Below are positions 42,052 through 51,741 of a stretch of DNA of 51,741 nucleotides, piece by piece. Position numbers and translations under genes: made by a program. The notes beneath the pieces are model-generated. The model saw only the letters and a list, made by a program, of their open reading frames with translations, searched no databases and was not told where the DNA came from. Each line of letters opens with the position of its first letter. The stretch's first letter is position 1. Location: assembly GCF_924101635.2 (NCBI RefSeq), contig NZ_CAKMAA020000076.1:1-51741 (forward strand), written 5' to 3'. The stretch is from Candidatus Nitrotoga sp. HW29 (lineage in GTDB: Bacteria; Pseudomonadota; Gammaproteobacteria; Burkholderiales; Gallionellaceae).

Positions 42052-42912
42052 TCATGGCCAAATAGCGACAGGCACAGTTTTGCTGTAATCATTCCAGCGA
42101 GTATTCTTGACGGCGGTTTCCATCAAAGTAACCTCTTCATCCGGCGCGCCACCACCGTCTTCATTATCACTAAGACCCACTCCATAAATTAGTCCTCCAC
42201 TCTCGGTAATAATAAAGCGGTTGTGCATTTGTGCTTTTTCGTAAATATGTAATTGCATCTTCACGCCTGAAGGCAGCATGGAAACGCTCTGCTGGAAACG
42301 TCGAATCAGTTCGTCGTTCGCAATCTCATCGCTACGGTGTATTTCCACAATGGCTTTACTACCGGGCAATAACGAACATATCCGCTCTAACGGTCGCTGG
42401 TAGCGAAGCTTGGTAGGATCAAAATGTGGATCAACCAACTTAATTATTTTAGCGTGCCGAATCAAAAACTCAGCACAGCCTATCAGGGCTTTAGCGGTTC
42501 GAGGAATGGCACATTGTCGCGCGGCTTTAAAGCGCGGATTTTCTTCATCAATTTCATCTTTAAACAACACATCCGGATGATCTACAGCAGTAGCTGAAAT
42601 AATCGCGGCAAAAGGTTGGCGTGCATGCTCCACTAATGCCCGATCTATCCACGTCTGAGAACCTTCGCCACTTGGTCGGCTCGTGTCAAAAACGATATCG
42701 CTACCAAATCTATTCAAGCGCTCCACAATTTTTGAAAACTCGACTTTACCCTTATGTTCGCGCAAAGCCGAATCACAAACCAGCTTTCTCCACTTCTTTG
42801 GGAATGCGGATATAACTCGTCCCTGGCTCACACCAAACTTTTCGGTAAAGTAGCAGAACTCACGATAAGACGAAGTAATGGCATCCGGATCTAACGCAAA
42901 CTCTTTAATCAT
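42052..42912 (-). CDS. PLD-like domain protein of unknown function, last gene of the hsdMS-ATPase operon
   Basis: A 286-residue protein I cannot name by family. The C-terminal half looks phospholipase D-like: an IIKLVDPHFDP strand-loop near residues 155-165 and a single degenerate HKD motif, H230-x-R232-x4-E237 (MHNRFIITESGG), followed by GVGLSDN where PLD enzymes have GSxN. The canonical Lys and Asp are replaced by Arg and Glu, resembling the MIT-C type PLD-like fold. Catalysis is therefore uncertain; nucleic-acid binding or nuclease activity is possible. The start ATG overlaps the ATPase stop (TGATG), so the two are translated together and probably form a pair. Confidence 0.6.
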   Translation of the reverse strand: MIKEFALDPDAITSSYREFCYFTEKFGVSQGRVISAFPKKWRKLVCDSALREHKGKVEFSKIVERLNRFGSDIVFDTSRPSGEGSQTWIDRALVEHARQPFAAIISATAVDHPDVLFKDEIDEENPRFKAARQCAIPRTAKALIGCAEFLIRHAKIIKLVDPHFDPTKLRYQRPLERICSLLPGSKAIVEIHRSDEIANDELIRRFQQSVSMLPSGVKMQLHIYEKAQMHNRFIITESGGLIYGVGLSDNEDGGGAPDEEVTLMETAVKNTRWNDYSKTVPVAIWP

Positions 42913-44612
42913 CAGAATAACTCTCCGGCTCGCTCATCAAAAAATCCTTTAGGCCAGTTTTCTGTGAATTCACCTGCTTCATCTACGGGCAAGGATTTAA
43001 TCTGAACCCCACTTTCTCCGCGACCGACATAATAAACCCCGATCATTTCAGGAGAAACAGGCGGAAAACCCGACGGTAAACCACCCTCCGATGTTTCGCG
43101 AATCCGGCGCAGCAAGCGCAAAATCAGATGCTCGCTGTGCGTTTCAATCAAAAAGCTCAGTTCGTGACGAAGTACACTATAAATTAGCAGGTCACCCAGC
43201 CCCACTTGCACCGAAGGGTGGATATGAAGCTCTGGTTGCTCAATAGTCACCAAACTTGCAGAAGGCTCCAACGCAGCCACCACCACAGGCAGCACTTGCG
43301 AGATTCCTATTCCGACATCTCGTGACTGCATCTCCAGACCGGATTTAGTGTCGATCAAACCGATGCGGGGCTTAGTCAGTAAAGCCTCAATTGCTTTATT
43401 CAACATCCATTTACGCTGTGGGGTCAATTCTTCAGAGCCAATTAGGTCCAGCCACTCCGCGCGCACTTCGCGCACCCAACGGCGCTCGATTGCATAACCG
43501 GTATTAAGCTTATCTTCGTCCGCCATCCAGCAGCTGACATCATCGATCAGGCTTTGCTGCCCAGTCAGCAAAGCTTCCCAGCCAGCCAAACCATCTGCCC
43601 ATCCTGCTTCGTCCTTAGTGAGACTGGCATCGAAATCACGTGCAGGCACATGGCGAATGGGTCCAACATAGCGCATTTTGCGCAATTCATCGCGTACCAA
43701 TAAACCGGGGCCGACAATCAGAGACGAAATAAAGGCGGTGAACTCCCGGGCGATATAAACATTCTCCGCCCCAATTACATCGGGTGCCGGAATATGTAAC
43801 AGTTCGCCCAATCGAGGCAACGCGCTATCAAAACCGGAAAGCCATTCTCGCAGACCTTCACCGGTTTTTTCCATGCCCGCATTAGTTACCGTCTCGATAA
43901 TGTGCGGCCATATCGTATAGTGAGTTTCAATGTTGGATGCTACGGAGTCACTAGATGTGGTCGAATTCGCTTTCAATCTTAAAAAATATTCTAGGTTATT
44001 GCTCAGATCTTCCGGTGTGAATTGACGCATAAAAATGGGATTGATCTCGTTAATACTAATACTGACATCCCGGCCATCATCTGTAGCATTGATCTCGGCC
44101 AGCCATTCGCCATTGGCACCCACTTGATAGCCGATCACCACCGCTTTATCACGTAAATAACTCCAGGCAATCACCAACTTCACGCTTACCGATTCAACGC
44201 GATTCCGTGTTTCTTGCAACAGATTATAAAAAGCCCATACCTTTGAATCATCTGTTTGCCAATCATCAAAAGCTTCCGGTACCAAATCGGGCATCCCTTT
44301 GCCGCCTAAAGACAGCTCAATCTGAATGGCAATATGGCGGGTCGTATCACGCAAATGAACAAGATTACGAAACCCACCCAGATCAACAAAATTTCCACCT
44401 TGCAGAGTACGGTCGGGATTGGCATTGTTGCGCTCCAGTACTTCACGCGCATACTGCAACGCTTGCATGATGGTGCTTTTACCAACGCTGTTTGCACCGA
44501 AAAGCAGCGTAATCGGCTTTAGATCAATCTGAACCTCGGAACTGATGCCTTTAAAATTCTCAATATAAATTTTGGTCAAGCCCGTCTGATTGATAGCGGT
44601 CGATGCACTCAT
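42912..44612 (-). CDS. AAA ATPase with DUF3696 C-terminus (OLD/SMC-like ABC-type ATPase)
   Basis: A 566-residue ATPase of the AAA_15/AAA_21 group. Walker A is GANSVGKST (about 39-47) after IENFKGISSEVQIDL; the ABC signature is VGIGISQVLPVVVAAL; Walker B is SLVTIEQPELHIHPSVQ; the switch His is in FLIETHSEHLILRL. It ends with WPKGFFDERAGELF, the DUF3696 tail. Such ATPases drive many defence systems (compare OLD, Septu, PARIS), usually with a separate effector. Here the partner is the PLD-like protein whose gene overlaps its stop by 1 nt. Twenty nt separate it from hsdS. Confidence 0.85.
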   Translation of the reverse strand: MSASTAINQTGLTKIYIENFKGISSEVQIDLKPITLLFGANSVGKSTIMQALQYAREVLERNNANPDRTLQGGNFVDLGGFRNLVHLRDTTRHIAIQIELSLGGKGMPDLVPEAFDDWQTDDSKVWAFYNLLQETRNRVESVSVKLVIAWSYLRDKAVVIGYQVGANGEWLAEINATDDGRDVSISINEINPIFMRQFTPEDLSNNLEYFLRLKANSTTSSDSVASNIETHYTIWPHIIETVTNAGMEKTGEGLREWLSGFDSALPRLGELLHIPAPDVIGAENVYIAREFTAFISSLIVGPGLLVRDELRKMRYVGPIRHVPARDFDASLTKDEAGWADGLAGWEALLTGQQSLIDDVSCWMADEDKLNTGYAIERRWVREVRAEWLDLIGSEELTPQRKWMLNKAIEALLTKPRIGLIDTKSGLEMQSRDVGIGISQVLPVVVAALEPSASLVTIEQPELHIHPSVQVGLGDLLIYSVLRHELSFLIETHSEHLILRLLRRIRETSEGGLPSGFPPVSPEMIGVYYVGRGESGVQIKSLPVDEAGEFTENWPKGFFDERAGELF

Positions 44613-44632
44613 ATTTTATTTATCCTCATTGC

Positions 44633-45367
44633 TCAGGCTGCCTCAGACGATGTAAAAACGGATGCGACAAGACTGTCGAACAGGAAATTTGATTGAGTCA
44701 GTTCATTTGCAAGTTTTTCCCTAATGGAAACTATCTTATTATGAATTTGCAAGTAACGTTCCTGAGCAGTAATGGGTGGAATTGGCCATTCTTTCCGATT
44801 TGTCACCGGATCGCCAAACACATCCAAAAAAACAGAATGCAAAAAATCGTCTGCCAAGTTGAGTGTTGCACGACGTTTTTTACAGATAGCATCCGCTTTG
44901 TCGAGAATTAAAGCGATACGCCGCTGCTCTTCCAAGGGCAGAAGCGGGATCTCAATATCAGCCAAAATTTCGGTTGCATGTCCATTTTTCATCTCTTCTT
45001 TGAAGCCAACCTCAAGATTATTCGCTTTTGAGAGCAAAAATTGCTGTATGTAATGGCTGTCAAAATCAGGAGATTCAACAATGATTGCCTTTAAATCTTT
45101 ATTGATAGCAACCAGTACATCGTTAATAACAACATTTTCAAGAGTCATACTCACTGGCACAAGTATGCTGCCGACTGGCAATAAATTGGATGCTGATTCT
45201 TTCAGGCCAAACTCTGTAATTTTTTCCAACGAATCATTGATGCGTGCATCGCAAATATCCTTCGCAGTCACCCAAGGAATTGTGCCATTCCAGTAGGAAG
45301 AGTTTGATCGGTCAAGCGCCCCTCCGCAAACGATTCGTGCCAAATTTCCCAATCTGACATATTTCAT
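44633..45367 (-). CDS. hsdS: Type I restriction-modification specificity subunit HsdS, single-TRD (half-size)
   Basis: A 244-residue protein with one target-recognition domain (residues 1 to about 140: YVRLGNLARIVCGGALDRS, NGTIPWVTAKDI), then the central conserved region PLLPLEEQRRIALILDKAD with ADDFLHSVFLDVFGDPVTN. Where a full HsdS (about 400-450 residues) would begin TRD2, the sequence goes from NRKEWP straight to PPITAQERYLQIHNKIVSI, the C-terminal coiled-coil segment. So TRD2 is missing while the distal dimer helix is kept, in frame. Homodimers of such half-subunits can recognise symmetric bipartite sites. It overlaps hsdM by 4 nt (ATGA). Confidence 0.85.
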   Translation of the reverse strand: MKYVRLGNLARIVCGGALDRSNSSYWNGTIPWVTAKDICDARINDSLEKITEFGLKESASNLLPVGSILVPVSMTLENVVINDVLVAINKDLKAIIVESPDFDSHYIQQFLLSKANNLEVGFKEEMKNGHATEILADIEIPLLPLEEQRRIALILDKADAICKKRRATLNLADDFLHSVFLDVFGDPVTNRKEWPIPPITAQERYLQIHNKIVSIREKLANELTQSNFLFDSLVASVFTSSEAA

Positions 45368-46887
45368 CGAAGCATAGCCTCCAACTCAATCATATCGCGT
45401 TGAATCTCGATCTCAAGCGCTTGCATGCGCGCCAGAATCACCTTAGGTTCTTCACACTTCACTTCCTGATGATTAATTCCCCTGTAGCGGCGTATTGAAA
45501 GTTCGAAATTATGGGCTCGAATATCCGCGGCGGACACCTTAAAAGCTTTTGCAGTTCGATCAGAAAAATCGCTCTCGCCACTACGGTAGCAACGATATTG
45601 GATCAATACATCGGACAGATCTTCATCAGTATGTTCCAAACATTTTTCTTCATCCAAAAATCCATCGTCTTGCGCGTCGTAAAAAAACACATCCTGAGTG
45701 CATCCACCTTTGGTGAACACCAAAATAGCGGTAGAAAGTCCTGCAAAAGATCTGAATATCCCGCATGGCAGCGAGATCACACCCTCCAGCCGGTTATGAT
45801 CAAGCAAATATTCACGTGCGGCCAAATGGGCTTTGCTTGAACCAAGTAGAACACCATCGGACACAACAATAGCAGAGCGCCCCCCACTCTTGAGCATGTG
45901 CAAAACAAGAACGATAAAAAGCAATTCGGATTTTTTGGTTTGGACAATTTTAAGTAACGAAGGATGTACATCCTCCGCCAACGTCCCCTTGAAGGGTGGA
46001 TTGGAGAGGATGATATCCAGCCCACCTTTTTCACCATCGGCAATTTCCGGAAATTTTTCTGGGAATTCTTTTGAAAGCGTATCTATATAGTGAAGATCCG
46101 GATTTTCTACCCCATGCAGCATCAGATTCATGGCAGCCAAACGCAGCATAGTGGCATCGAAATCAAAACCGTGGAATCTACCGTGCCGGATGTGCGCCTG
46201 ATTATATTCAAACTGCTCACCAGAGTAATTATTGCTGCCACCTTCGAGTGCTTCGGCTAACTCCGGTTTAGCGTAAGCTTTGCGCAAGTGTTCCATTGCT
46301 GCCACCAAAAAACCAGCCGTGCCACAAGCAAGGTCACCAATTGTTTCAAACGGCTTGGGATCTATAAGCTCCACCATGAGCTTGATGATGTGGCGCGGCG
46401 TGCGAAACTGACCATGTATACCTGCCGTGGTGAGCTTGCTCAGCAAATACTCATATAAATCGCCCTGGATGTCGGCATTGCCCAGTGGCAATTTTTCGAT
46501 CTGCTCCACCATCGAGACCAGCAGACTGGACTTTGAAATTTGGAGAGACACGTTTTTTATATATTCGCCAAATGTGAATTTTTTGCCGCCGAGAATGCGC
46601 AGATGGGGAAAAACTTCGTCGCGCACAAACTTGAGCATGTCCTCACCATCACTCATCCGGCTCCAGTTTTGCCAGCGCAGCGTTTGCTGGTCAACCCGAA
46701 AAAGATGATGCGGGGATTCATCGGAGCGTAAGGCATTTCGCTCATGTTGTGCCTCTTCCATATCCAATAGGCGGGCAAAAATCAGAAAGGATATCTGTTC
46801 GATTATTATGAGCGAATTGGAAACCCCTCCCGTAGCACAATCCAGCCAGAGTCGGTCTATGTCATTTTTGACTTGGTTATTAATCAT
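45364..46887 (-). CDS. hsdM: Type I DNA adenine methyltransferase subunit HsdM
   Basis: A 507-residue N6-adenine methyltransferase. It has an HsdM N-terminal domain (RLWLDCATGGVSNSLIIIEQ, FLIFARLLDMEE), the SAM-binding motif I GDLACGTAGF (184-193), FRTPRHIIKLMVELIDPKP, and the catalytic motif IV NPPF (296-299) in LDIILSNPPFKGTL. All key motifs are intact, so an active methylase is expected. It starts 2 nt after the rmuC stop and overlaps hsdS by 4 nt. No hsdR gene is found anywhere in the window. Confidence 0.95.
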   Translation of the reverse strand: MINNQVKNDIDRLWLDCATGGVSNSLIIIEQISFLIFARLLDMEEAQHERNALRSDESPHHLFRVDQQTLRWQNWSRMSDGEDMLKFVRDEVFPHLRILGGKKFTFGEYIKNVSLQISKSSLLVSMVEQIEKLPLGNADIQGDLYEYLLSKLTTAGIHGQFRTPRHIIKLMVELIDPKPFETIGDLACGTAGFLVAAMEHLRKAYAKPELAEALEGGSNNYSGEQFEYNQAHIRHGRFHGFDFDATMLRLAAMNLMLHGVENPDLHYIDTLSKEFPEKFPEIADGEKGGLDIILSNPPFKGTLAEDVHPSLLKIVQTKKSELLFIVLVLHMLKSGGRSAIVVSDGVLLGSSKAHLAAREYLLDHNRLEGVISLPCGIFRSFAGLSTAILVFTKGGCTQDVFFYDAQDDGFLDEEKCLEHTDEDLSDVLIQYRCYRSGESDFSDRTAKAFKVSAADIRAHNFELSIRRYRGINHQEVKCEEPKVILARMQALEIEIQRDMIELEAMLR

Positions 46888-46889
46888 GC

Positions 46890-48527
46890 TTATTCCAATG
46901 GTGCATTTTCTTGTGGTGGCAATTCAGGCAGATGCTCTAATTCAAGCTCTGCCTTGGCTCGCAGACTCTCAGGAAAATCCCCTTGTACTAAGACGCCAAG
47001 TCTTTTGAAATCGTTGGCTTGTTTAATCAAATTATCTTTCCCGTTAGTAAATTGATCCATTGCTTTATTAAATGAATCTTTGGCCTTGTCGAGTTGCGCG
47101 CCAACTCCTTGCATTGAACCCACGAAAGCAATTAACTTTTTGTACATCTTGGCGGCACGCTCCGCAAGTTCCGCAGTATGAGCGTTTTGTTCTTCAAATC
47201 TCCAGAGTTGGCGCACGATATTGAGGCTGGTAAGCAATGTGGTCGGCGTCGCAACCAACACATTCTGTTCAATCGCTTTTTGGAATAACGTTTCGTCTGC
47301 GCGCAACGCTTCCACAAAAGCGGATTCAATGGGAATGAACATAAAGACCATTTCAGGGGAATTTAGGCCAGGCAGCTCGAAATAATTGCGATCTGACAGC
47401 TCCTTAATTCGGCTGGATATAGCTGCAACGTGTTCTTTCAGCGCCAATTGCCGCTCAATTTCACCTTCTGCATTAACATACCGGGTATAGGCATTAAGGG
47501 ATACCTTGGAATCGATGACTAGATGCTTCATTTGCGGAAGGTAAACAATTACGTCTGGGCGGCTCCTGCCCGTCTCAGTGTTAAAGCTGACTTCACGACG
47601 ATACTCTTTACCGGATCTCAACCCTGAACGTTCCAGGATATTTTCCAATACCATTTCCCCCCAGTTTCCCTGCATCTTAGATTGACCTTTAAGTGCTGTG
47701 GCCAAACCATGAGCCTCCTCGGTAATCTGTCGATTTAAATCTTTCAACTGGTTTAGCTCGGCCTTTAATGTTGTTTGTTGCTTTGTATCCTCAAGATGAA
47801 TTTCTTCAACCTTGGCCTTAAACTCATGAATTTGGGTCTTCAATGGCACAAGCAGCGCGTCGATGTTCGTTTTATTCTGATCAGTAAAACGCTTGCTTTT
47901 GTCTTCCAGAATTTCTCCGGCTAAAGATTTGAACTGATCCGAAAGCTGCTCACGAGCATCATTCAATAATTGCAGTTTTTCTGGTGACTGCTTGCGCTCA
48001 GCTTCTAGTGTCGCGGTGAGTGCGGATTTTTGCGCACTCAAATTCTTGATGTCCTGAGTTAGTAACTCGTTTTGCTCTTTTAGAACGACGCGTTCCAACT
48101 GAAGCTCCCCAATACGCTTAACCTGTGACTCAATAGTCGAGTTAACTTCACCCACATTTTGACGAATATCCGCGAGAGATCGGTTAAGTGCGCTTATTTC
48201 TTGACTTGCCAATTCAAGATTCGCCATAAGTTCAGGAACACGATCCGCCCGTTCGGCCAATTGCGCACGCTCATCTCCAGCTACATCAAGCTGATCACGC
48301 CAAAGCATGGCTTGCTTTTGCAGATCAGCAAGTTCAGCAGTGAGACGCTTTGCATCATCTTGTGAGGCAATTAGACGCTCATTGAGCCTAGTGATTTCAA
48401 TCTGAGTTTCAGCTTTTACCCGCAATTCAGTCTCAATAATACGAGCACGCATAATCAACCAAACAACTGCTGCACCAACTACTGAACCAATTGACAGTGA
48501 AACATAACTATAAATTGGCAGATCCAT
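46890..48527 (-). CDS. rmuC: RmuC family protein (PD-(D/E)XK-like recombination-limiting nuclease)
   Basis: About 545 residues from ATG 48527 (MDLPIYSYVSLSIGSVV), the usual RmuC-type membrane start; the frame is open to 48683. One N-terminal transmembrane helix, then a long coiled coil (to about residue 250), then the RmuC domain: GKSKMQGNWGEMVLENILER-type region and RPDVIVYLP followed by KHLVIDSKVSL. These show PD and DSK of a PD-(D/E)XK active site (about residues 324-341). RmuC limits recombination at inverted repeats in E. coli and is a predicted nuclease. Its stop lies 2 nt before hsdM, which makes it the first gene of the modification operon instead of a stand-alone housekeeping copy. 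Confidence 0.9.
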   Translation of the reverse strand: MDLPIYSYVSLSIGSVVGAAVVWLIMRARIIETELRVKAETQIEITRLNERLIASQDDAKRLTAELADLQKQAMLWRDQLDVAGDERAQLAERADRVPELMANLELASQEISALNRSLADIRQNVGEVNSTIESQVKRIGELQLERVVLKEQNELLTQDIKNLSAQKSALTATLEAERKQSPEKLQLLNDAREQLSDQFKSLAGEILEDKSKRFTDQNKTNIDALLVPLKTQIHEFKAKVEEIHLEDTKQQTTLKAELNQLKDLNRQITEEAHGLATALKGQSKMQGNWGEMVLENILERSGLRSGKEYRREVSFNTETGRSRPDVIVYLPQMKHLVIDSKVSLNAYTRYVNAEGEIERQLALKEHVAAISSRIKELSDRNYFELPGLNSPEMVFMFIPIESAFVEALRADETLFQKAIEQNVLVATPTTLLTSLNIVRQLWRFEEQNAHTAELAERAAKMYKKLIAFVGSMQGVGAQLDKAKDSFNKAMDQFTNGKDNLIKQANDFKRLGVLVQGDFPESLRAKAELELEHLPELPPQENAPLE

Positions 48528-49169
48528 GAATACTGATTTCCTTACCTTCCTAGTATCGAGTACATAACCCGACGGACAAAATTTTCCTAAAATGACCGAA
48601 TTGAATTGCGCTCGATGCATCAACTGAATACCACCCTTTTTGTTCTTAATTTTCCATAATAATGGAGCATCGTAAAATAACATAAATAGGATTTATATTT
48701 TTATATCGGTAATCATCACCTCGCCAACACATTCAATACACAACTGTTCAATTATTAAGCAAAGAATCAAACTACACGTGATTACCTTGGTTTATCTTGA
48801 GTATTCGTAGCACCCACCCTCTTCTCGTTTAAATACCAAAAATCTAAATTTATCCTTCATTTGAAGGATGTTTTAGACAATCCAAGCGCATAAACTAAAT
48901 ACTTTAGATAGTTAGCATTAAAAGTGGCTATTAAAGCGGAGTACAGGATATACAAAACTCGAGGTTGACCACTGCATAAACAAGAGAAGCAAATATTTTT
49001 TGCAGAAAATCGACATTTTTATCTGACCAGCTGTGCCTTTTTATAAGTATTGACCGAGAGCAGACTGCGAAGATCCATTGATATATCAGATAGAGGAGAA
49101 CGATAGAAAATTTTAAGTGCAAGGCAATAAAATCTGAAAAATAAATTAATCCACCTTGGGAGAAAAATA
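48528..49169. other. intergenic region upstream of rmuC operon and the Ig-like protein gene
   Basis: About 640 nt, AT-rich, divergent: it should hold the promoter of the rmuC-hsdMS operon and that of the secreted protein at 49170. The in-frame extension of rmuC to 48683 and two minus-strand frames of 63-69 codons (48931-49228) resemble no protein. No RNA gene seen. Confidence 0.45.
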
Positions 49170-49796
49170 ATGATAACCGTAAAAAATATTAAAGGCGCAA
49201 TTTTCATTTTGGCTTTAATGATCATCAATACTGCGCCTGTTCTCGCCGAAACGCTAACCTTGATTGGGGTAACGGGGAATTCATGTAATTATTCTGCTGT
49301 TTCCATCGATTCCAGTGGCAATCTGACGGCTACGTGCGTTGCAACATTATCCACATTAACGCCAACGTGCAGTCTGATTGCCTCACCGTCTACAATTAAT
49401 GCAGGATCAATATCTACGTTGACTGCAAGTTGTAGCCCCGCCGCCACTTCGTATGCATGGACTGGAGCAGGTACAACCAACTTTACATCTGGCGGCACCG
49501 TTACACCAACAGCAACCACCACCTATACGGTAAGAGGTACGAATGAACATGGGTCTGGAAATACTGCCTCAGCGACTGTGATAGTCACGACAACGCCACC
49601 GCCAGGCAACGGCGGCGGGCAACCTCCAACGCCATCTTCACCTATTGCAGAAATTAAACGATGGAACTATGCTTTTGAAACAGTTAACAAGTATCCTTTC
49701 CACGATACTAAACAGGAACCAGTGGCATATATGGCGTACAATAAACTGATACAATCACTAAAACCTACAATAATTTTCTTGCCGACTTCTTGGTAA
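49170..49796 (+). CDS. secreted protein with Ig-like/PKD-like domain, possibly C-terminally truncated
   Basis: A 208-residue protein with a signal peptide (GAIFILALMIINTAPVLAE) and a GGGAGAAA-type ribosome-binding site. Residues about 65-140 look like an Ig/PKD-type beta-sandwich (LIASPSTINAGSISTLTASC, ATSYAWTGAGTTNF, TPTATTTYTVRGTNEHG). A Thr/Pro/Gly linker (TTPPPGNGGGQPPTP) leads to a short tail that does not resemble a known domain. This build, with a linker followed by only about 45 residues, suggests the original C-terminal part has been lost. A terminator follows. Role unknown; extracellular or surface location is inferred. Confidence 0.6.
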   Translation: MITVKNIKGAIFILALMIINTAPVLAETLTLIGVTGNSCNYSAVSIDSSGNLTATCVATLSTLTPTCSLIASPSTINAGSISTLTASCSPAATSYAWTGAGTTNFTSGGTVTPTATTTYTVRGTNEHGSGNTASATVIVTTTPPPGNGGGQPPTPSSPIAEIKRWNYAFETVNKYPFHDTKQEPVAYMAYNKLIQSLKPTIIFLPTSW

Positions 49797-49831
49797 AATT
49801 CAGCTTGGCCTGAAAGAGTTTCCGTGTATTT

Positions 49832-49863
49832 CTCCCCCATCTTTAAAGATGGGGGAGTTTTTT
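49832..49863 (+). terminator. rho-independent terminator after the Ig-like protein gene
   Basis: A perfect 13-bp palindromic stem (CTCCCCCATCTTT / AAAGATGGGGGAG, 49832-49857) followed by TTTTTT. It ends directly against the ATG at 49864, so its 3' arm (GGGGGAG) also sits where a ribosome-binding site for that frame would be. Confidence 0.88.
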
Positions 49864-50154
49864 ATGAGATGTATGTATTTAAAACATTATGTGGCGCTAG
49901 TTGTGATGGTTTGCTGTGCTACTCCGGCATCAGGCGAGGAGCAGCAGGTATTGGTTGAGTCCAAGCAGATTTAAGTTACTAGCTTAGGTTTTGAAGCAGA
50001 ACTCATGCGTATTCCGATCGAACATCTCACGGAGGTGTCGATAAGCAAACCTCGTATTGGCCAAACCACTAAAAAATCTGCTTATTCACAAGACACCAGC
50101 TGTACACAAGCGCAGAGCACCAGTCTTGATCATGAACCCTTAATCAGCAAATAA
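49864..50154 (+). pseudogene. small secreted-protein gene interrupted by an in-frame TAA
   Basis: ATG 49864 opens 36 codons with a signal peptide (CMYLKHYVALVVMVCCATPA) and EEQQVLVESKQI, then TAA at 49972-49974. The same frame continues without another stop for 59 codons (VTSLGFEAELMRIPIEHLTE, then VSISKPRIGQTT and onward) to TAA at 50152-50154. Protein-like composition on both sides suggests a gene of about 96 codons with a single nonsense change. Family not recognised. Confidence 0.5.
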
Positions 50155-50201
50155 ATAGAGCTAGCATCTGACAAGCTTCTGACTTTTTCAAGAGTCCGTA
50201 T

Positions 50202-50615
50202 ATGCACGCAGGGAAACTGGTTTTCGCTCAGCTAATGGAACACCCATTGCACACATTTCGTCAGTGCGTGGCCAAATATCCAAGCGACACCAACGCTCAA
50301 GTTTTCGCATCTCAACAGTTTCTCTGCGTGGCCTTTGCGCCACTAACTTACCGCGAGAATCTTCGTAACATCGAAACTTGCCTGCACGCCCATCAAGCCA
50401 AGCTTTATCACTTGGATATACGAGGCAACATCACAAAGAGTACGCTGGCCGATGCCAATGAAAAGGGGAACTGCCGCATTTATGCAGATTTTGCGACAAG
50501 CCTCATTCAAATCGCCAGAGTGCTTTATGCCAACGACCGCTTTGTAGCGGAACTGGAACAAGCGGCTCAATACCGAGGCTTCGCCTTACATAATCCTACA
50601 GATTTTGTAGCCTGA
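50202..50615 (+). pseudogene. truncated IS4-family transposase (N-terminal part only)
   Basis: A 137-codon frame whose first 118 residues match the DUF4372 N-terminal region of IS4-family transposases: MHAGKLVFAQLMEHPLHTFR, QFLCVAFAPLTYRENLRNIE, CLHAHQAKLYHLDIRGNITK and NCRIYADFATSLIQIARVLY. Full-length enzymes are about 370 residues with a DDE catalytic core that is absent here. The last 20 residues look unrelated, so the element was cut and fused to other DNA. It cannot transpose by itself. Confidence 0.8.
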
Positions 50616-50761
50616 TTCTTTTTGATAAAACACCACTCGATCAATCGCTTAAAAATTATAAAATACAAATAACCATACAGAAAAACAACAACTAACTGAA
50701 TCTACTTGGCTAAACTGCCGGACACTACACTGGTATCAACAGACAAAATTGGATAAAGAAT

Positions 50762-51544
50762 TCACGCTAATTCCGCCTGTCTTGAAGCACCCGTTTTACT
50801 AAATATTGCGGTCATTTGTGAGCGTACAGTTGAGATCGCAACACCCGCTTCATGTGCGATTTATTTTGGTGTCATACCTTTAATAAGATCGATAGCAACA
50901 CGTGCTTCAGCCAGCGTCATTCCATACATTTGCTTCAATAAAATTCTCTGCGGTAGCATTGGTAAACTGAGATCCTGTATCACAATTAATGCCATATTTT
51001 GTTGAGTTTGATAGCAACATTGATGGTCGATAGGTAACGGAGTAATCAATATACGCAAAGCAGTTTTGCAATCCATACCGACTCTCAAACCACTGGCAAT
51101 TTTGGGGCCATGTAGCCCGCAAGCAAATCGAATTGCATAAATCAATTTTTTATTAAATGTATCGCAGTTAGCTATGCTGTTTGCAACCATTTTTATTTCA
51201 GTTCGATGCGACAGAAATGTATCGGCAAGACGACTCACATAGCTAATTCTTCCATCACCGCTAGCAATCAGAATAGGCAATCTTATTTGTTCCAGGCTTG
51301 CCTGAAAAAACGCATTCTGAGTTTTAATCGACTCAAAATGTGACTGTACATTGAGTACACGTCGCAGATGATCTAGTAAACCAGACAATTGTTTGAGGTG
51401 ATCAATCTTTTTTGTCTGGGGGATGCTTTTATATTGAATGGCAATAAAACTGTCTAATTCTTCATCGCTGGCAATTGGCGAGACGGAAAGAGAACCAAAA
51501 CCAAAAGGCTTCATAAAGTCTTGATAAAACTCACAACAGCTCAT
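50762..51544 (-). pseudogene. LuxR-type transcriptional regulator broken by an in-frame TAA in its HTH domain and lacking its N-terminus
   Basis: The open part (51544-50861) encodes 227 residues beginning in the middle of a PAS-like sensor domain (EFYQDFMKPFGFGSL, PILIASGDGRISYVSRLADT) and reaching the helix-turn-helix (GMTLAEARVAIDLIKGMTPK). There a TAA (50863-50861) interrupts it; the same frame continues as IAHEAGVAISTVRSQM and TAIFSKTGASRQAELA to a TGA at 50764-50762. The family has Glu at the stop position (K-E-I-A), so GAA to TAA is the simplest change. Related regulators are about 370 residues, so the 5' end is also missing; the IS30-type end 66 nt upstream is a likely cause. Confidence 0.75.
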
Positions 51545-51610
51545 GGCCTTTTTTCCAAAATGGAGGTAATCGATATACCATTGACCTGGTGGAATTTTTT
51601 TGAGGCGGAT

Positions 51611-51741
51611 TCAAGTTCGAAGTGCAACAACTGATGCTGGCTTGGTATAGCGCATCTCCACCCCGAATAGTACTTCATGTGGTGACCTGAAACCCAGCAC
51701 TTTGCGTGGCCGGTGGTTGAGTCGTTCTACCACCCGCTGTA
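51611..51741 (-). mobile_element. IS30-family transposase, C-terminal end (runs off right edge)
   Basis: A frame of 42 codons entering from the right edge and ending in TGA at 51611-51613. It reads QRVVERLNHRPRKVLGFRSP then HEVLFGVEMRYTKPASVV and ALRT, the C-terminal signature of IS30-family transposases. The bases around the stop (GCACTTCGAACTTGAATC on the minus strand) are likely part of the element's terminal inverted repeat, placing its end near 51605. The rest of the element, if present, lies beyond the window. Confidence 0.78.

Follow-up and report, generated by a model that had tools for sequence, protein, structure and literature searches.

Several described defence systems share parts with the locus reported here. 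ABC ATPases with related motifs and head fold are paired or fused with a nuclease in Gabija (GajA), in Septu and retrons (PtuA) and in OLD-type systems, the partner being TOPRIM or HNH. ShdA of the Shield system is an RmuC-type protein of Pseudomonas type I restriction-modification (R-M) operons with RtcR, according to one report (PMC11090510), and DrmC is given as the phospholipase D (PLD) nuclease of DISARM in another (PMC9142583). Here we describe an operon of the nitrite-oxidising bacterium Candidatus Nitrotoga sp. HW29 which consists of rmuC, hsdM, hsdS, a gene for an ABC-type ATPase and a gene for a PLD-fold protein. It lies in a stretch of 51,741 nucleotides (nt) of contig NZ_CAKMAA020000076.1 (RefSeq assembly GCF_924101635.2, positions 1 to 51,741), hereafter the window. 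In our preferred reading, to which we give a probability of roughly 0.6, the locus would be a reduced type I operon whose ATPase and PLD-fold protein form a two-gene effector, kept in Nitrotoga without restriction.

A preliminary description, made from the sequence of the window, had reported these genes as one set read in one direction. All five are on the minus strand with open frames, and the junctions given there are exact: rmuC and hsdM are 2 nt apart, hsdM and hsdS overlap by 4 nt, hsdS and the ATPase gene are 20 nt apart, and the ATPase and PLD genes overlap by 1 nt. The features are as follows, with lengths in amino acids (aa) and open reading frames as ORFs.

46890-48527, minus strand: rmuC, 545 aa with the ATG at 48527 as start codon; a same-frame upstream ATG is at 48683
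45364-46887, minus strand: hsdM, 507 aa; PADLOC MTase_I PDLC03021, 7.7e-149
46309-46335, minus strand: HsdM motif I, DLACGTAGF, with Leu where all other aligned rows have Pro
45991-46002, minus strand: HsdM motif IV, NPPF, unchanged in the window
44633-45367, minus strand: hsdS, 244 aa; retains the N-terminal recognition half and the conserved C-terminal stretch
42912-44612, minus strand: ABC-type ATPase with C-terminal DUF3696, 566 aa
44475-44501, minus strand: Walker A of the ATPase, FGANSVGKS
42052-42912, minus strand: PLD-fold partner, 286 aa; 1-nt overlap with the ATPase gene
42217-42225, minus strand: H230-x-R232 motif of the PLD-fold partner, conserved without exception among the 64 aligned members
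48528-51741: region 5' of rmuC, the position of hsdR and the regulator in relatives; neither was found here, nor a recognisable remnant; contains a DUF4372 ORF

Profile searches assigned the first three products to RmuC (1.8e-96), N6_Mtase (7.9e-56) with HsdM_N, and Methylase_S (9.1e-15). The ATPase matches AAA_15/AAA_21 and DUF3696 (4.4e-7; 30.5 bits, cut-off 22). No RNA fold was found at the hsdS-ATPase junction. On the same strand 3' of the PLD gene lie what we take to be aroA-cmk, rpsA and ihfB, names given from the sequence and not from a family search.

Comparison with described systems

The window HsdM and HsdS are clear members of the type I families, and the HsdR of a Methylocella relative matches PADLOC REase_I (1.5e-287). 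The window differs from a type I R-M system in three respects: a cognate HsdR was found neither in the window nor in the genome, the HsdS of 244 aa is missing the second target-recognition domain present in the long forms of loci L050 and L051, and motif I of HsdM is altered. No known type I enzyme has, to our knowledge, the ATPase/PLD pair among its subunits.

As described for Shield (PMC11090510), the operon places an RmuC domain in a type I setting, and its relatives carry a CARF-sigma54 regulator; the hydrophobic stretch and the coiled coil, both judged by eye, may be further resemblances to ShdA. The ATPase/PLD pair is not named for Shield in the accessible part of that report, and a Shield-named model was absent among the four PADLOC matches. 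In the window genome this is the sole RmuC found, and both HsdR and the regulator are missing.

The window ATPase differs from those of Gabija, Septu and OLD-type systems in its PLD-fold partner and its C-terminal DUF3696. The closest PADLOC ATPase models are Menshen NsnB (4.9e-44), PDC-M55A (2.7e-41) and HEC-03B (1.3e-40), all with their best stretch in the C-terminal part, and the PLD protein is not matched by their partners. NsnB is presumably a component of Menshen, with the gene set NsnA, NsnB and NsnC; its match here is partial, and Nsn partner models are absent from the matches listed for the other four genes (the best 25 for hsdM and hsdS). MADS likewise has HsdM-like, HsdS-like and AAA ATPase genes, and its mad2, mad5 and MAD3 models match in part, at scores well short of the NCBIfam cut-offs (126.2 of 720 bits for MAD2 and 32.4 of 420 bits for MAD3). 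DrmC and SauUSI also have a PLD fold beside a methyltransferase or ATP-dependent restriction, and SauUSI is a fold match, but neither matches the window protein by sequence, which carries H-x-R in place of the classical H-x-K.

In open-licence literature, with few subscription papers and few bioRxiv preprints, no title or abstract opening described this gene set. Within the libraries searched the set as a whole is unnamed, in line with what had been suspected from the sequence.

The operon in related genomes

The best 80 of 493 relatives were retrieved as loci by ATPase alignment and annotated with profiles and phmmer. We assign eleven of them to Nitrotoga and treat 69 as non-Nitrotoga, of which 56 have at least 9 kb upstream (loci with room). 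Group labels such as Rhodobacterales follow record titles in part. The 12 Nitrotoga loci compared below are the window and 11 others, of which L047 and L049 were assigned by their ATPase identity (94 and 93%); their record titles differ or are less specific. The best relatives of the window ATPase are in Candidatus Nitrotoga records or in contigs of near kin. The window ATPase is 93-95% identical to that of nine of these loci and 83 and 89% to the other two, and 10 of the 11 have the identical five-gene order. The gene set of the window recurs beyond chance.

The usual operon in relatives is a CARF-sigma54 or WYL regulator followed by HsdR, RmuC or UDG in some, HsdM, HsdS, the ATPase and the PLD-like protein. 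The preliminary description had treated the last two as a pair, and they are adjacent across genomes, with the PLD gene directly 3' of the ATPase gene in 66 of 69 non-Nitrotoga loci. Among the other three, L059 also has a PLD gene, L095 stops at a contig edge 73 nt past the ATPase, and L099 has a 353-aa ORF after the ATPase which is not matched by the PLD profile and has an H-D-R stretch by eye. The commonest ATPase/PLD junctions, taken from the longest frames, are overlaps of 1 nt (29 loci) and 46 nt (13 loci).

In the loci with room, HsdR is found on the same strand in 46 of 56, HsdM and HsdS in 49 each, an RtcR-like sigma-54 activator (counted at phmmer >40 bits) in 28, a WYL protein in 16, and RmuC and UDG in three each. 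In both relatives scanned, HsdR belongs to the EcoEI type of type I subunits, and the RtcR-like protein of L053 matches PADLOC RtcR_PspF2 CARF_AAA_HTH (2.6e-200). The association of the pair with hsdM, hsdS and rmuC and without hsdR, as first described, stands in part: hsdM and hsdS mostly accompany the pair and rmuC lies in the operon of four non-Nitrotoga loci, but hsdR is usually present. In seven of the 56 loci the pair occurs without hsd genes, each time with an RtcR-like gene flagged upstream. The ATPase with a Pfam-less PLD-fold protein is a recurrent accessory of type I operons, unnamed in the libraries searched.

Probable loss of hsdR

The window lacks hsdR as initially reported, since HsdR seeds give chance matches only (E 0.34 or worse). 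In the 12 Nitrotoga loci HsdR was not found in the available DNA 5' of rmuC, which amounts to 3.2 kb in the window (3.1 kb from the longest frame), 5.5-7.9 kb in seven other loci, 2.5 kb in L047 and less than 1 kb in L042, L046 and L049. A free hsdR elsewhere in the genome was sought too, and none of those found fits this hsdMS. The HSDR_N genes on contigs C52 and C5 were rejected as cognate because both contigs carry their own hsdM, as was a broken hsdR on contig C68, whose orthologues in genomes G402 and G401 (97 and 94% for the C-terminal piece) have in their vicinity an HsdM that shares only 27-29% identity with that of the window. This broken gene is the sole match of the Methylocella HsdR in the whole genome, in two pieces of 33 and 35% identity, and the best match of the same HsdR across 19 Nitrotoga genomes has 36%. 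As yardsticks, HsdR has a mean identity of 80.2 and 79.6% within two beta-proteobacterial sets, and identity between the HsdR of Vibrio and that of Methylocella is 52%.

The ATPases nearest to those of Nitrotoga (54-58% identity) are in loci L053-L056, and all four loci have HsdR. The lack of hsdR would be a derived state of the genus, because these nearest relatives carry HsdR in the operon. From these comparisons, loss of hsdR in the Nitrotoga line is the simplest and most likely reading. The gene set is thus hardly a system designed without hsdR, since L053-L056 and the usual operon contain it.

HsdM and HsdS occur without HsdR in three of the 56 non-Nitrotoga loci with room (L072, L098 and L114), with intervening genes in L072 and L098. 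L114, from an Arenicellales chromosome, has the order HsdM-HsdS-ATPase-PLD around position 10 kb and NPPI as motif IV. It is possible that this locus is a second, independent loss of hsdR with the same erosion.

Two side observations concern the same region and genome. The DUF4372 ORF 5' of rmuC (window 50202-50615) is likely a piece of an IS4-family transposase and a possible agent of rearrangement. The broken hsdR on C68 (L038, 379-3731) is a frameshifted EcoEI-type gene near the contig start, beside a RhuM/Fic-like ORF (by eye); the hsdM genes found in this genome are all on other contigs.

Erosion of HsdM and HsdS

The methyltransferase had been called intact. Its reading frame is open and motif IV is kept, but in motif I the Pro is replaced by Leu. 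At the second residue of this motif, the 10 other Nitrotoga rows and all 54 outside rows share Pro; 53 of the outside rows are distinct, L029 and L088 being the same record, and one copy was removed for the counts that follow. With one fixed pattern applied to Nitrotoga and outside rows alike, 5 of 11 Nitrotoga rows and 5 of 53 outside rows deviate from HsdM motif I or IV (Fisher p 0.0097, relatedness ignored). The Nitrotoga rows are the window, L043, L044 and L051 for motif I and L050 for motif IV. Outside Nitrotoga, L081, L083, L089 and L120 depart at the Cys alone, and L114 is the sole row off motif IV.

Of the 11 Nitrotoga loci having hsdS, nine, among them the window, encode an HsdS of 233-245 aa, and the other two encode forms of 369 and 391 aa. 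By alignment with the long forms, the short form is without the second recognition domain and has kept the C-terminal conserved stretch. In L052 (Nitrotoga sp. BS) hsdM and hsdS are deleted with remnants and the ATPase and PLD frames are open; blastn matches extend from the rmuC end over roughly the first 45 nt of hsdM, and begin again roughly 150 nt before the end of hsdS to continue into the ATPase gene. Judged from these alignments, HsdM and HsdS appear to be undergoing erosion or deletion in Nitrotoga, and the pair is kept.

Constraint and retention of the pair

The ratio of nonsynonymous to synonymous divergence (dN/dS) was computed by the Nei-Gojobori method as pairwise medians over 11 or 12 loci. 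Pairs with dS <=0.02 or saturated were omitted, which kept 58 of 66 pairs for RmuC, 50 of 55 for HsdS, 61 of 66 for PLD and all for the rest. Median dN/dS is 0.059 for PLD, 0.065 for the ATPase, 0.124 for aroA-cmk, 0.168 for RmuC, 0.193 for HsdM and 0.283 for HsdS. Median dS lies between 0.44 and 0.51 for all six, so that the dS of the pair equals that of its neighbours. For the neighbours with L051 omitted, the medians are 0.029 for rpsA, 0.067 for ihfB and 0.059-0.157 for five others. The pair is constrained like the surrounding core genes: similarly to ihfB, more tightly than aroA-cmk and more loosely than rpsA. All four ATPase patterns are matched in 11 of the 12 Nitrotoga loci (L047 is without ETHSEH) and the H-x-R of the PLD protein in all 12. 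An ATPase orthologue is present in 14 of 19 Nitrotoga genomes, among them 13 of the 15 near-complete ones.

In three HsdR-bearing sets the order of conservation is inverted. HsdM is more conserved than the ATPase in none of 55 Nitrotoga pairs, compared with 51 of 55, 6 of 6 and 21 of 21 pairs in these sets. Mean identities of HsdM, ATPase and PLD are 80.7, 91.7 and 91.5% in Nitrotoga, 80.1, 60.8 and 44.5% in 11 Rhodobacterales loci, 83.4, 65.1 and 40.4% in L053-L056, and 79.0, 59.1 and 33.5% in seven other beta-proteobacterial loci.

Furthermore, the ATPase of Magnetococcales (e.g. L030, L031 and L033) has blocks of 33-52% identity in residues 101-260 and of 74-100% elsewhere. The same numbered region has 82-98% identity in Nitrotoga, with one block of 66%, and the central region is variable in Rhodobacterales too. 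On these alignments, a hypervariable centre would fit a sensing domain under conflict, and the frozen centre in Nitrotoga a fixed task.

Predicted folds and families of the pair

The model of the PLD-like protein has a predicted local distance difference test score (pLDDT) of 95.1 and a predicted template modelling score (pTM) of 0.90. Its neighbours in the PDB place it in the PLD superfamily, namely Nuc (1byr, TM-score 0.56 by target length), Zucchini (4ggj), SauUSI (7clg) and PLD3; TrmBL2, MITD1, FAM83B and polyphosphate kinase are further ones. TM-scores normalised by the query are 0.25-0.38, therefore only the PLD domain is common to the model and these neighbours. The classical PLD motif is H-x-K-(x)4-D; it is absent from the family, whose 64 aligned members never have Lys at its position. 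The alignments for structure prediction omit four plasmid-record rows, which reduces 68 to 64 and 57 to 53 rows.

The PLD-like protein had no match in NCBIfam or PADLOC and one sub-threshold match in Pfam (RNase_Zc3h12a, E 0.03), a family found in one of 68 members and dropped. Searching all 68 members against Pfam and PADLOC gave scattered weak matches, with five weak PADLOC families of which BrxL was the best (4e-4, in four members), and a PDB search by sequence with the family gave nothing meaningful.

The ATPase model (pLDDT 88.5, pTM 0.89) has an ABC head fold and, with Walker A and the other conserved ATPase motifs, belongs to the ABC/OLD type. Its neighbours in the PDB are GajA, SMC and Rad50 heads and a retron ATPase, with TM-scores by query of 0.29-0.37.

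RmuC

The rmuC product has a hydrophobic N-terminal stretch and a coiled coil (both by eye) and the RmuC domain. RmuC also lies between HsdR and HsdM in L053, L054, L056 and L034, and each of these four genomes has a second rmuC. In the window genome and in three other Nitrotoga genomes checked, the operon copy is the sole one. A tree was built from 31 rows: 52 loci were offered, 38 matched by phmmer at 1e-10, and seven of these were copies of another row. In this tree the Nitrotoga RmuC clusters with the RmuC encoded in the L053 and L054 operons (99/100), apart from the RmuC of the same-family genome G364, and the copies of L034 and L056 are placed elsewhere. The operon label requires at least three changes on the tree, either one gain and two losses or several gains, and there were long-branch warnings. 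On this grouping, the Nitrotoga RmuC probably came with the operon. In other lineages repeated recruitment of RmuC is likely, as far as the tree goes. That rmuC was a housekeeping gene joined by an island is disfavoured by the tree, as well as by the fact that the four non-Nitrotoga genomes whose operon includes rmuC each have another rmuC.

In L055 (6081-6758) and L056 (6251-6928), both by Pfam, and in L117, by phmmer, a gene of the uracil-DNA-glycosylase (UDG) family lies in the type I operon between HsdR and HsdM, the position of RmuC elsewhere.

Proposed function and alternatives

An operon of the order HsdR-RmuC-HsdM-HsdS-ATPase-PLD may have entered the Nitrotoga lineage, then lost hsdR, and been inherited vertically in this presumed order of events. 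We infer the function of the pair from gene order, predicted folds, motifs, constraint and the pattern of loss. The ATPase and the PLD-like protein would act as a single effector of the Gabija, Septu or OLD type, as their folds, motifs, pairing and constraint suggest. The ABC ATPase dimer would sense a nucleic-acid state tied to infection or DNA damage, probably via its central domain, and switch on its PLD-superfamily partner, whose H-x-R site would act on nucleic acid. In complete systems, gene order suggests that the pair is a second line behind restriction, turned on by the CARF-sigma54 or WYL regulator. In Nitrotoga it would have become a near-core function, independent of restriction and probably of the methyltransferase too.

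Several points weigh against this. HsdM is still under purifying selection (0.19), which may mean that methylation is of use to some strains, and six of the 11 Nitrotoga HsdM retain motifs I and IV. Constraint as tight as that on the pair is also seen in certain neighbours (0.059 and 0.077), and the dN/dS pairs are non-independent and come from 12 loci. Magnetococcales do not have the inversion, with identities of 74.7% for the ATPase and 76.8% for PLD in a comparison of these two proteins, and horizontal exchange of modules may be a partial source of the fast evolution elsewhere. That the central domain of the ATPase is a sensor is something we infer. PLD folds also serve as non-catalytic binders, and Arg stands at the classical Lys position in all 64 members, in which H230 and R232 are invariant. 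Several of the fold neighbours (TrmBL2, MITD1 and FAM83B) presumably do not cleave nucleic acid.

If the preferred reading of a reduced type I operon is right, the case would illustrate a defence effector outliving its parent system and would make the activity of the pair accessible apart from the restriction genes; Nitrotoga would be a natural experiment in which restriction was lost and the accessory stayed under strong constraint. More tentatively, the pair may be an undescribed, portable effector recruited by various sensing systems (type I, prokaryotic Argonaute (pAgo), a large helicase-nuclease, or RtcR-like alone) and captured in Nitrotoga as a core genome-maintenance machine amid the decay of its parent.

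A possible, though doubtful, alternative is that defence is the origin only, and that the pair, perhaps with the single RmuC, now does housekeeping in the processing of DNA ends or replication forks. The dN/dS like that of ihfB and below that of aroA-cmk would agree with this, as would the presence in 13 of 15 near-complete genomes with aroA-cmk following in the 12 loci compared, the conserved ATPase centre that is hypervariable in Magnetococcales and variable in Rhodobacterales, and an operon-type RmuC as the sole one in the four Nitrotoga genomes searched. However, the same picture could arise from a defence gene whose trigger is fixed, two of the 15 near-complete genomes have no match, and we know of no repair phenotype for the pair.

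The preliminary description had proposed that HsdMS methylates self DNA and that the pair, with or without RmuC, replaces HsdR and cuts unmethylated invaders. This is unlikely here and fits badly, because HsdM and HsdS erode or vanish in Nitrotoga and the pair does not: five of 11 HsdM deviate in motif I or IV, L052 keeps the pair without hsdM and hsdS, and the pair is free of hsd genes in seven of 56 loci with room and adjoins a pAgo-like gene in L024. The tight operon of conserved order, purifying selection on HsdM and HsdS (0.19 and 0.28), the motifs retained in the other six HsdM, and a half-size HsdS that could pair for a symmetric target, as reported for truncated S subunits, would speak for it.

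It is also improbable that the pair is a guard like PrrC or RloC, silenced by the type I complex and released by anti-restriction proteins of phages. PrrC, which resides in a type IC locus according to one report (PMC12707154), is a precedent, and in complete operons the pair is often directly 3' of hsdS. However, the pair was retained in Nitrotoga after the loss of HsdR, in L052 also after that of HsdM and HsdS, and it also occurs without hsd genes.

A chance neighbourhood or a functionless relic is very improbable for the pair in view of its dN/dS of about 0.06, its pairing in 66 of 69 loci, the conserved order, open frames and motif patterns kept. The lost hsdR, the shortened HsdS and the eroding HsdM would agree with it, and for hsdM and hsdS it may apply.

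Distribution and further arrangements of the pair

In searches with the PLD protein, phage records gave no match, and plasmid records gave five matches in one search and four in another. The class-wide profile search matched seven of 369 genomes, three at full length including its own; the other four matches were partial, with E from 1.4e-8 to 4.6e-4, in frames of 583-700 aa. The phylum search with the single protein matched 11 of 398 genomes, its own included, some of them partially.

Directly 5' of the pair in L024 (5138-9897), on plasmid p96k of Deinococcus sp. AJ005, lies a pAgo-like PIWI gene (585 aa, 7.6e-30), a single case. L091 (8403-17251) and L101 (8388-17794) have an RtcR-like regulator, the ATPase and PLD genes and then a helicase of 1550-1600 aa with an MTES_1575 nuclease domain; hsd genes were not found upstream. 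ATPase/PLD pairs are doubled in tandem in L107 (6321-12534) and L109 (9743-15796). A second, shorter ATPase was detected in the Nitrotoga genomes G401 and G406 (L145 and L146, frames of 463 and 452 aa), which in its C-terminal part is 40-43% identical to the window ATPase.

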